This document shows, one piece after another, positions 483-7,335 of a stretch of 64,000 nucleotides of DNA. Numbering within the stretch: position 1 is the stretch's first letter; every line of letters begins with the position of its first letter. The position numbers were made by a program, and so were the translations under genes. The notes beneath the pieces were generated by a model. The model had not been told where the DNA came from, did not search any database, and worked only from the letters and a program-made list of their open reading frames with translations. The DNA lies in NCBI GenBank assembly GCA_027452265.1, contig DAIDGR010000025.1:1-64000 (forward strand), written 5' to 3'. The DNA comes from Caulobacteraceae bacterium (GTDB lineage Bacteria; Pseudomonadota; Alphaproteobacteria; Caulobacterales; Caulobacteraceae).

Positions 483-3044
<2,562 letters not shown>

Positions 3045-4404: not shown

Positions 4405-5915
4405 TGGACGACGACCGCGCCGCCCTTGAGCTTCCCACCGAGGAAGAGCTGGAGCTGCCCCGCCCCTGGTCGCAGGTCCTTCCCGCGCCGCGGGCTCCGG
4501 ACGATCCCGGCGAGGCGAGCGCGAAGCCGTTCTCGTCCCTGGTTCCGGCGATCATCGGCGCCTGCCTGATGATGCAGACCCTGTCGGCCACGGTGATCGC
4601 CAACGCCCTGCCGACCATGGCCCACTCCCTGCACGAGGACCCGGTGCGGCTGAACACGGCCATCACCGCCTACCTTCTCGCCTCGGCCATTGTCCTGCCG
4701 ATCAGCGGCTGGGCGGCGGACCGGTTCGGCGCCCGGCGCATCTTCCTCTTCGCCATCGTCGCCTACGCCCTGTCCAACGCCGCCTGCGGGTTCGCCACCG
4801 ACCTCACGACCCTGCTCCTGGCGCGCATGGCCGAGGGCGCGGCGGGGGCCATGCTGGGGCCCGTGGGCCGGCTCGTCCTCTTGCGCTCCACGCCCAAGCA
4901 CGACCTCGTCCAGGCCATGAGCGTGCTGACCATGCCCGCGCTCCTTGGACCGGTGCTTGGCCCGCCCATCGGCGGGGCGATCATCACCTATGCCTCCTGG
5001 CGCTGGATCTTCTTCCTCAACCTGCCCATCGCGGCCCTGGGCGTGGCCCTGGTGCTGATGTTCATCCCCAATGTGAAGGGTGAGGATCCCCGCCCCCTCG
5101 ACTGGCCAGGCCTGTTCCTGACCGGGCTGGGCATGGCCGGGGTCGTCTACGGCTTCGAAAATCTCGGCCGCCGCGCCTTTCCCGCCTGGGCCGTGGCCGG
5201 GATGCTGGTGGGGGGCCTCGTCTGCCTCGCCGCCTTTGTCCGCCACGCCCGCCGCGCGCCCCATCCGATCGTCGATCTGGGGCTTCTGCGGGTCCGCACC
5301 TTCAGCGCCTCGGTGGTGGGCGGGGCCTTCATGCGCATGGGCATGGGGGCGACGCCCTTCATGCTGGCCATGCTGTTGCAGGTGGCGTTCGGCCTGTCGG
5401 CCCTCCAGGCCGGCCTGATGACCTTCGCCAGCGCCGCCGCCGCTCTGATCATGAAGACGGTCGCGCCGCCCATCCTGCGCGCTTTCGGCTTCAAGCGGAC
5501 CTTGAGCGTCAATGCGGTGATCGTGGCCCTGCTGTTCATGGCCTACGCCCTGTTCCGTCCCCAGACGCCGCACTGGGTGATCTATGCGGTGCTGCTAACG
5601 GGCGGCTTCTTCCGCAGCCTGCAGTTCACGGCGTTGAACGGCCTTGCCTATGCCGACCTCGATTCGCCGCGCATGAGCCGCGCCTCGACCATGTCGACCA
5701 TGTTCCAGCAGCTTTCCCAGAGCATCGGCATTGGGCTGGCGGCCCTTTTGTTGCGCCTGTTCCGTGGCCTCTCGCACAGCCCGTCCCTGACCGCCGACGT
5801 CATCGCCCCGGCCTTCATCGTCATCGGCGGAGTCGCCCTGATCTCGGCCCTGTTCTTTGTCACCCTGCCGAGGCACGCGGGCGCGGAGCTGAATGGCCGG
5901 CCCAAGCGGGCCTGA
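4404..5915 (+). CDS. MFS drug-efflux transporter, DHA2 (EmrB/QacA) type
   Basis: 503 aa with a ~45-residue charged cytoplasmic N-terminus and then about 14 hydrophobic segments, the number expected for DHA2 exporters. MFS signatures include DRFGARR in the loop after helix 2, and the motif-C-like GPVLGPPIGGAI in helix 5. These are proton antiporters exporting drugs, dyes or fatty-acid-like compounds. The ATG at 4404 overlaps the TGA of the MarR gene; a GTG one codon upstream is an alternative start. No membrane-fusion protein is adjacent, unlike the emrAB set at 44.6-48.7 kb. The substrate is unknown. Confidence 0.9.
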   Translation: MDDDRAALELPTEEELELPRPWSQVLPAPRAPDDPGEASAKPFSSLVPAIIGACLMMQTLSATVIANALPTMAHSLHEDPVRLNTAITAYLLASAIVLPISGWAADRFGARRIFLFAIVAYALSNAACGFATDLTTLLLARMAEGAAGAMLGPVGRLVLLRSTPKHDLVQAMSVLTMPALLGPVLGPPIGGAIITYASWRWIFFLNLPIAALGVALVLMFIPNVKGEDPRPLDWPGLFLTGLGMAGVVYGFENLGRRAFPAWAVAGMLVGGLVCLAAFVRHARRAPHPIVDLGLLRVRTFSASVVGGAFMRMGMGATPFMLAMLLQVAFGLSALQAGLMTFASAAAALIMKTVAPPILRAFGFKRTLSVNAVIVALLFMAYALFRPQTPHWVIYAVLLTGGFFRSLQFTALNGLAYADLDSPRMSRASTMSTMFQQLSQSIGIGLAALLLRLFRGLSHSPSLTADVIAPAFIVIGGVALISALFFVTLPRHAGAELNGRPKRA

Positions 5916-5966: not shown

Positions 5967-6293
5967 CTAAATGCCGCCGCCCTGCGCCCGCCGCTGGCGG
6001 AAGGTGCGCAGAACCTCAAGCGCCTGGTCGCGACGCTCCTGCGGGATGTCCGCCCACACCTCCAGGATGTCGTTGTCCATCTCTGAGGGATCCAGCTCAA
6101 GCAGGTGGCCCGGCCGCGTCTGGAGCACGGGCGCGAGCTTGCGCAGCCACTTGTCCGACAGGCCGCGATCGCCCGACTCCAAGAGGCTGATGACGGCGCC
6201 GGTGGTGCCCACAAGCTCGGCCAACCGGGTCTGGGTGAGACCGCGATGCTCGCGCCAGGCGCGCAGATAGTTCCGGACGTGAGAACGGACCAT
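5967..6293 (-). CDS. XRE-family helix-turn-helix regulator
   Basis: 108 aa. Residues about 8-65 form a Cro/CI-type helix-turn-helix (LRAWREHRGLTQTRLAELVG, then VISLLESGDRG). The C-terminal ~40 residues are acidic then basic and probably dimerise. It is divergently transcribed from a GcrA-C-domain-like gene. On the minus strand a -35-like GTGACA (6326-6321) and a -10-like CATAAT (6304-6299), 16 bases apart, put the start of transcription at or next to the ATG (6293). I therefore infer a leaderless message. A palindromic TTGCATAATGC overlaps the -10, which would allow autorepression. Confidence 0.88.
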   Translation of the reverse strand: MVRSHVRNYLRAWREHRGLTQTRLAELVGTTGAVISLLESGDRGLSDKWLRKLAPVLQTRPGHLLELDPSEMDNDILEVWADIPQERRDQALEVLRTFRQRRAQGGGI

Positions 6294-6296
6294 GCC

Positions 6297-6376
6297 GCAT
6301 TATGCAAAAGCGGCCTGGATTGTCACTCAACAAAATGCAAAGATCGAGTCTTGCCGGATATATTGCATAATGCAAT
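6297..6376. promoter_or_regulatory. Divergent operator/promoter region with spaced ATGCAA half-sites
   Basis: Two dyads, GCATTATGCAA (6297-6307) and ATTGCATAATGCAAT (6362-6376), flank a third half-site ATGCAA at 6335-6340. The three ATGCAA copies start at 6302, 6335 and 6370, that is 33 and 35 bases apart, about three helical turns each. The left dyad covers the inferred -10 of the XRE gene; the right dyad lies just upstream of the rightward gene and contains a CATAAT that may be its -10. A GANTC site (GAGTC, 6346-6350) lies between. This fits binding by the XRE protein, but that is inference. Confidence 0.6.
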
Positions 6377-6385
6377 TATTTGGCG

Positions 6386-6736
6386 ATGACCCGCTCCTCG
6401 CCCTGCAACCCTCTCAAGGCCCTACCGTCCTCCGGAACCGACGCCATCGCCCGGGCGCCCCGGCCCTGGCTCTCCCGCCGCCGCCACGAATGCGCCTTTC
6501 CCGTGGCCGGGGAGGGGGCGACGACCCTGTCCTGCTGCAACCCCTGCGGTCGCTGGACCTATTGCGAGGCGCATCGCGGCGTGATGCGCGGCGCCCTGGC
6601 CTATCCCGACCGGTTCGAGCGCGCGATCCTCGCCTGGCTGGCGAGACGCGCCGAGCAGGCGGCGCTGGACCCCGTGGGCGAGTCGGATGAGCCCCCATCT
6701 TCCGACTCCCCGGCGGTCCTGAGGGTGGCCGCATGA
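6386..6736 (+). CDS. Small protein resembling the GcrA C-terminal (sigma-interacting) domain
   Basis: About 116 aa from ATG 6386 (a TTG two codons upstream is possible). The central part reads CAFPV, then CCNPCG, then YCEAHRGV. This spacing of C-x-x-P, C, and YC-x-x-H resembles the C-terminal sigma-interacting part of the Caulobacter regulator GcrA. The N-terminal DNA-binding helix-turn-helix of GcrA is absent; residues 1-35 are basic and proline-rich. GcrA acts with CcrM methylation at GANTC promoters. A stand-alone domain could bind sigma-70 as a co-activator or as an antagonist. It overlaps the next gene by ATGA, so they are one operon. The homology is by eye and needs a profile search. 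Confidence 0.5.
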   Translation: MTRSSPCNPLKALPSSGTDAIARAPRPWLSRRRHECAFPVAGEGATTLSCCNPCGRWTYCEAHRGVMRGALAYPDRFERAILAWLARRAEQAALDPVGESDEPPSSDSPAVLRVAA

Positions 6737-7335
6737 CCCGCCGCCGCAAGAAGCCGGCCGCCCCGCGCCCCTTGACCGCCCTGTCGCCTGATCCCCAGGC
6801 GTCGGCCGATCCGGCAAACTGGGGCGTCAATGCCGAGGCGCTTTCACTCCCGTCCCAGGTCGGGGTGGTCCATGGCCGGGGCGCCCGGGGCGAGGTCACG
6901 CGGGCGCGACGCACCGACGTCTTCGAGCGCCTCCTGGCGCGCGGGGCGCTCAGCGTACGCGGCGTCCTGGCCGTGCGCCGGCTCCAGGACGACATGGCCG
7001 CCTGGCATCGCTCCGGCCTTGGCCTCAGCGCCCGCCTGGAGGCGCCGTCTCAGGGCGGCGCGCGGCCGGGGGTCATGGCCGAGGCGTGTCTGGCCGCCGG
7101 CGCCCGGGTGCGGGCGGCCCTGGGCCTCGCCGGCCCGGCCAGCGCGGGTCTGCTGGGCGCCCTGTGCGAGACCGGCGCCGTGCGCGGGCTGGAGCTCGAC
7201 TGGCGCGAGGTGGTCCTGGCCCAAACCGGAGAGCGGCTGGCCGACGCCCAGACCGCGGTCCTGCGCGCCGCCACGGAAAACCTCGCCGGCGCCTATGCCC
7301 TGCTGGATCGGCGGCCCCGGACGCCTCGCCCGTAG
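6733..7335 (+). CDS. Hypothetical protein, possibly DUF6456-like
   Basis: 200 aa, coupled to the preceding gene by an ATGA overlap. A basic N-terminus leads into a linker, then from about residue 60 a helical domain: VFERLLARGALS, a run of arginine-rich helices, ARVRAALGLAGPAS, and a final helix ending ENLAGAY. The order of these elements recalls the DUF6456 domain of alphaproteobacterial regulators (a GP near the middle and a terminal LA..Y helix). I hold this only moderately. No signal peptide, membrane segment or catalytic motif is seen. Its position suggests a role in the same regulatory unit as the XRE and GcrA-like proteins. Confidence 0.6.
   Translation: MTRRRKKPAAPRPLTALSPDPQASADPANWGVNAEALSLPSQVGVVHGRGARGEVTRARRTDVFERLLARGALSVRGVLAVRRLQDDMAAWHRSGLGLSARLEAPSQGGARPGVMAEACLAAGARVRAALGLAGPASAGLLGALCETGAVRGLELDWREVVLAQTGERLADAQTAVLRAATENLAGAYALLDRRPRTPRP

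Follow-up and report, generated by a model that had tools for sequence, protein, structure and literature searches.

A candidate three-gene switch for genome-scattered P22-like particle genes in Caulobacteraceae

A soil bacterium related to Caulobacter has three adjoining genes, which encode an XRE-type repressor, a stand-alone GcrA sigma-interacting domain and a remote DUF6456/GafZ-type protein; they are probably the master switch of a domesticated P22-like (podovirus-like) particle system whose genes are scattered over the genome. The predicted control link between this trio and the scattered phage genes is well supported; operators of the trio recur at P22-like virion genes elsewhere, a feature that lay outside the view of an earlier sequence-only reading of the locus. 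Particle production and the packaging of host DNA are inferred from the genes.

Three-gene locus and its protein families

The window, that is, the whole 64,000-nucleotide stretch that was analysed, belongs to a 2.73-Mb draft genome (G000) of 117 contigs that is 98.9% complete. The genus sample comprised 16 genomes, draft assemblies throughout, and the public contigs of the relatives are from metagenome-assembled Caulobacteraceae of bog, permafrost-region and other sites. In the window, the trio has an MFS transporter gene on one side and an enoyl-CoA hydratase gene on the other. ARAGORN called a tRNA-Ser (gct) at 4820-4905, within the reading frame of the MFS transporter, which is probably a false positive. 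All three gene positions given by the sequence-only reading were confirmed. The XRE gene is divergent from the other two, and the start of the 200-aa gene overlaps the stop of the 116-aa gene by 4 bases. The features of the locus are as follows, in window positions:

5967-6293, minus strand: XRE/Cro-CI-type repressor, 108 aa; helix-turn-helix (HTH) at residues 9-66, Pfam HTH_31, E=7e-10
6294-6308, no strand: operator 1, GCCGCATTATGCAAA; adjoins the XRE start, found in all trio loci, matrix score 16.5
6327-6341, no strand: operator 2, TCAACAAAATGCAAA; 33 bases from operator 1, position conserved, matrix score 12.5
6351-6356, plus strand: predicted -35 of the rightward promoter, TTGCCG, by sequence inspection
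6362-6376, no strand: operator 3, ATTGCATAATGCAAT, a perfect palindrome between -35 and -10, matrix score 25.4
6374-6379, plus strand: predicted -10 of the rightward promoter, AATTAT, overlapping operator 3, by sequence inspection
6386-6736, plus strand: stand-alone GcrA sigma-interacting-domain protein, 116 aa; motif CxFP...CC...YCxxH
6733-7335, plus strand: remote DUF6456/GafZ-type protein, 200 aa, predicted antiterminator, by profile-profile match

The HTH regulator that had been named as a neighbour was borne out by Pfam; it occupies the left position of the trio in all 11 genomes with an intact trio, at 58-85% identity. The 116-aa protein had been read as resembling the GcrA C-terminal domain, and in a profile-profile comparison (hhalign) its family indeed matched GcrA-type proteins and C-termini with Prob 98.6 and E=6.7e-16. 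A tryptophan, the C and P of CxFP, CC, YC and H are invariant across 11 members of the family. The GcrA N-terminal DNA-binding domain, which had been noted as missing, is absent from the protein of the window and from its trio relatives. Phages, prophages and one TerL locus encode full-length relatives, in which a GcrA-type HTH lies at the N-terminus. The closest phage relative is the full-length GcrA-like protein of L058 (hmmsearch, E=1e-19), Pfam assigns those of L028 and L036 to GcrA (E=1e-12 and 5e-16), and Caulobacter phage DMCA and L198 hold further ones. The sole PDB match of the 116-aa protein is a weak one to the GcrA SID structure 5yix_B (E=0.8), and its structure model was of poor quality. 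Homology (5yix) suggests that it might bind sigma-70 region 2.

The likeness of the third protein to DUF6456 also stood up, as hhalign aligned its family with Caulobacteraceae DUF6456/GafZ over 113 columns (Prob 93.4, E=2.5e-7). The matched DUF6456 proteins adjoin a DnaA-like GafY in Caulobacteraceae, i.e., they are GafZ. The neighbour of the 200-aa gene is the GcrA-domain gene and not a DnaA-like GafY, whereas the DUF6456 loci of several relatives do have a DnaA-like neighbour. Pfam matches to DUF6456 (PF20057) were obtained in five of 11 relatives of the 200-aa protein, only at E of at least 0.059 and below the curated cut-off. Phage homologues of the protein (L055, L056, L057 and L035) sit between replication genes and the terminase. 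Those of L055, L057 and L035 lie directly before terminase genes, in the position of an antiterminator such as lambda Q, and homology to GafZ predicts that the 200-aa protein is an antiterminator. In two of the phage contigs (L055 7150-7884, L056 14-274), the gene immediately ahead of the relative is a PhoB-like winged-helix gene, so that the neighbours of this family seem variable, being GcrA-like or winged-helix proteins.

Single-sequence scans of the 116-aa and 200-aa proteins against Pfam, PHROG and NCBIfam gave nothing useful and no Pfam match for either. No match was found when the genome contigs were searched with the single 116-aa sequence, nor for the 200-aa protein by tblastn against phage records or by Foldseek of its model against the PDB. 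The GcrA and DUF6456 resemblances were seen once families rather than single sequences were compared, and on these grounds we consider them real.

Operators at the trio promoter

The divergent promoter of the trio contains three conserved operators with the consensus TTGCATAATGCAA, spaced about 33 bases apart, and operator 3 is the top-scoring site in the whole window. The -35 and -10 elements of the rightward promoter are separated by 17 bases, a layout shared by the relatives. Because the operators overlap core promoters, lying between -35 and -10 at the trio and over the -10 at phage genes, the XRE protein appears to be of the repressor type. Its binding to the operators is predicted, and a paralogous XRE protein could share them. 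A GANTC site (GAGTC), the methylation motif of CcrM/GcrA, is located at 6346-6350 directly beside the predicted -35; most trio promoters of relatives are without one there.

Operator distribution across genomes

A search of the entire G000 genome with the pattern TTGCANNNTGCAA returned only three perfect sites, where 0.47 would be expected from base composition. One is in the trio, the second (C78:10600) is at a lone large terminase gene among host genes, and the third (C24:4260) is at an operon of P22-type portal, scaffold-like and capsid genes that borders on host genes at its other side. A 15-base matrix, trained on the trio promoters only, was then run over 193 kb of other loci; beyond the retrieved loci, operator scans rest on the pattern and not on the matrix. 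The 15 best matches in the 193 kb, from 8-9 genomes, are all at promoters of TerS, TerL, portal or neighbouring phage packaging and head genes. In 39 kb of two ordinary P22-like prophages, by comparison, the matrix maximum was only 13.4. An operator site scoring 15-25 is present at most further TerS-TerL loci, with G110 as an exception, and strong operators are absent from the short-tail loci.

The genome G055 has the trio and seven perfect operator sites (L085-L091) and neither TerL nor portal. Two of these sites precede lone small-terminase-like genes; the others precede a sugar aminotransferase gene, a HigBA-like pair and unrelated genes. Since several perfect sites in G055 are upstream of unrelated genes, not every site need belong to the system. 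A multicopy family of small proteins with the motif RAVRLTLALEx..EIAALRAG and no Pfam or PHROG match was also observed (L084 2064-2927; L092 2051-2368; L093 and L094, near 1950-2030, minus strand; L096 2013-2696; L082; L069). An operator-like site is found shortly before the start of several copies (G021, G055 and G100), and the family may be a member of the same regulon.

The particle promoters share TTGAC, about 17 bases and then an operator that covers the -10. CCGG follows two bases past TTGAC (TTGAC-NN-CCGG) in 10 of 11 head promoters, compared with none of eight terminase-only promoters. In C. crescentus, the element bound by GafZ, an experimentally supported antiterminator, is located between -35 and -10, and the promoter of the head cluster is the only one to carry it (PMC11150451). 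As the head-only element occupies the place of the GafZ-binding element, we propose that the 200-aa protein might load at TTGAC-NN-CCGG. A promoter and terminator scan of the head cassette gave results no better than shuffles.

Scattered particle genes and conservation of the trio

The survey of gene neighbourhoods that had been suggested with the sequence-only reading showed an intact trio in 11 of the 16 genus genomes. Given this and the profile match above, neither finding that would have counted against that reading, a lack of profile similarity to GcrA or a lack of conserved neighbourhood, was obtained. The 200-aa gene is present in 14 of 16 genomes, always as a single copy, and is cut off by contig ends in G046 and G105. 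In G076, the XRE and 200-aa genes form a divergent pair that lacks the GcrA-domain gene; a full GcrA-like protein with its own DNA-binding domain is encoded just ahead of TerS-TerL, with the same operator. At the trio locus of G063, the XRE gene is doubled in tandem (L019 1585-1881 and 1894-2106, minus strand), and one of the two genes is short, at 74 aa.

Packaging, head and short-tail modules are found at separate loci across the genus. Profile matches identified a portal (P22_portal, E=4e-102), a terminase and a capsid, and a portal gene is present in nine of 16 genomes. The TerL of the system occurs in 13 of 16 (54-100% identity, sometimes in several copies), namely in 13 of the 14 carriers of the 200-aa gene and in neither of the two genomes without it (Fisher p about 0.025). 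Multiple TerS-TerL pairs per genome were seen at separate host loci (L132-L151; G063, G085, G100, G070 and G095), most of them with the operator. The short-tail module is on separate contigs in eight genomes, and its gp4-like, gp10-like (PF11134), appendage and ejection-like genes always follow one another in the same order; the gp10 tail gene was not found in the window's genome and two relatives. The G021 head cassette also has endolysin, holin-like and tail-fibre genes. In G000, portal and scaffold are separated by a Fic/Doc-like gene (L099 1602-1994, minus strand), which was not seen at this position in G021. The particle loci showed no integrase or replication genes, nor did the cassettes with host genes at both ends, which also had no recombinase gene. 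Damaged copies occur, with a portal split in G095 and TerL fragments in G100.

Evolution of the loci and alternative explanations

Portal and capsid are under purifying selection, with dN/dS of 0.13-0.40 between G000 and G021; the values are 0.15 for the XRE gene, 0.38 for the 200-aa gene and 0.53 for the GcrA-domain gene. The TerL locus of these two genomes is syntenic with host genes on both sides and has host-like divergence, and the trio locus likewise is syntenic with host-like divergence between close relatives. The head cassette has a sharp left boundary at its own promoter and flanks that differ in every genome, and its DNA is 91% identical between G000 and G021, compared with 73-82% for host and TerL loci. 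This excess of identity and the differing flanks indicate that the head cassette moves between lineages. In a test of co-inheritance, pairwise identities of the 200-aa protein and the portal correlate weakly (rho 0.45, p 0.09).

Such a cassette, together with the several TerS-TerL copies per genome, would also suit mobile phage satellites that spread between lineages and use a host-encoded switch, the chromosome providing regulators and terminase. We consider this unlikely, as cassettes with host genes on both sides carry no integrase, recombinase or replication gene, and neither the terminase nor the switch travels with the cassette in the window's genome.

A slightly poorer account is that the loci are remnants of at least one P22-like prophage, with the trio left over from its immunity and late-control region and the scattered genes as decaying fragments whose operators persist by inertia. 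The broken portal and TerL copies, the missing gp10 in G000 and G021 and the phage-borne homologues of the 200-aa and GcrA-like proteins would be expected of such remains. The account is improbable because 11 of 16 genomes have the trio, operators are retained at many loci, dN/dS is well below 1, the loci showed no integrase or replication genes and the TerL locus is embedded in syntenic host genes.

The sequence-only reading had proposed a split activator, in which the XRE protein supplies DNA binding and the GcrA-domain protein contacts sigma, or else an anti-GcrA factor. On such a view, the XRE protein would tether the GcrA-domain protein to DNA and activate host promoters of ordinary genes, or the small protein would inhibit GcrA; a GcrA-type domain without a DNA-binding domain and the GANTC beside the -35 fit these ideas, which are nevertheless very improbable, because the XRE sites overlap core promoters as those of a repressor do, the perfect G000 sites are at phage genes and the trio, the GcrA-like protein of G076 has its own DNA-binding domain and nothing points to an anti-GcrA role.

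Proposed switch

In the preferred reading, that of a master switch of domesticated particle genes, the XRE protein would bind TTGCATAATGCAA, silence its own divergent promoter together with the particle promoters, and thereby autoregulate. Once repression is lifted, the GcrA-domain protein would bind sigma-70 region 2 and help open the particle promoters. The 200-aa DUF6456/GafZ-like protein would associate with RNA polymerase at the long head operon, with TTGAC-NN-CCGG as the probable loading element, and let it read through terminators. The outcome would be capsids, or short-tailed particles where tail genes exist, which could package host DNA.

It is possible, though we hold it tentatively, that these loci represent a new gene transfer agent (GTA) family of podovirus (P22-like) descent, with scattered modules, a head cassette exchanged between lineages and a switch parallel to RogA-GafYZ in which a GcrA domain replaces GafY. 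Classified GTAs are RcGTA-like or those of Bartonella and Brachyspira, with no P22-like one among them (PMC9662315), and no description of a P22-like GTA was found in the literature searched. If true, a scattered, centrally switched P22-like set would be a further independent domestication, and the logic of repressor, sigma partner and antiterminator would have been assembled twice in one bacterial family from different proteins. The reading suggests a purpose for the stand-alone GcrA domain, provides a defined operator and predicts that loss of one repressor turns the system on.

Comparison with known systems

The nearest described system is RogA-GafY-GafZ of the Caulobacter crescentus GTA (PMC9632790, PMC11150451). 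Both have an HTH repressor over a two-gene operon, and scattered phage genes. The operon encodes a sigma-70-contacting activator and a DUF6456-family antiterminator in C. crescentus and proteins with these predicted roles here; the -35/-10 spacer of the head promoter holds the antiterminator-binding element there and a candidate for such an element here. While RogA is a 213-aa LexA-like protein with a C-terminal peptidase-like domain (PMC9632790), the trio repressor is a 108-aa XRE protein that consists of the HTH only and is divergent from and adjoins its operon. The operator is TTGCATAATGCAA here and GGAA-N4-TTCC in the RogA system, the sigma partner is a GcrA domain here and the DnaA-like GafY in C. 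crescentus, and the targets are P22-like here and RcGTA-like there. TIGR02217 and Pfam-level DUF6456 are absent from the window's genome, and a PF04860 portal is found in one of the 16 genus genomes, one without the trio. Identity with RogA-GafY-GafZ was ruled out, since the repressor and sigma partner are built from other domains than RogA and GafY, and an RcGTA cluster is absent from the genome. Membership of the Rhodogtaviriformidae (RcGTA-like) was rejected as well, there being no RcGTA-type head-tail cluster.

The criteria for GTAs (viriforms) include tailed-phage-derived structural genes endogenised at several loci, mostly vertical inheritance with the host, and the packaging of random host DNA for delivery to other cells (PMC9662315). 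Structural genes of this kind are found here. As to inheritance, the trio and TerL loci are syntenic and host-like, and the head cassette is non-syntenic and more similar than host genes.

The 116-aa protein shares the C-terminal motif CxxP...C...YCxxH with GcrA (PF07750; 5yix, 7ye1), the cell-cycle sigma-70 cofactor. Unlike GcrA, it has no N-terminal DNA-binding domain; both domains are present in its phage relatives, which are encoded beside phage genes. Portal, scaffold, capsid, gp4-like, gp10-like and ejection-like genes of P22 type are shared with phage P22 and the P22-like prophages G133 and G137. The genes of these prophages are contiguous, whereas in the genus they are at separate loci without integration or replication genes and share one trans-acting operator. 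Membership among P22-like prophages was rejected on account of these separate loci bounded by host genes. A repressor with three spaced operators, and phage relatives that encode the antiterminator just upstream of late genes, recall lambda CI and Q; unlike in lambda, the repressor sites here are directly on the late promoters.
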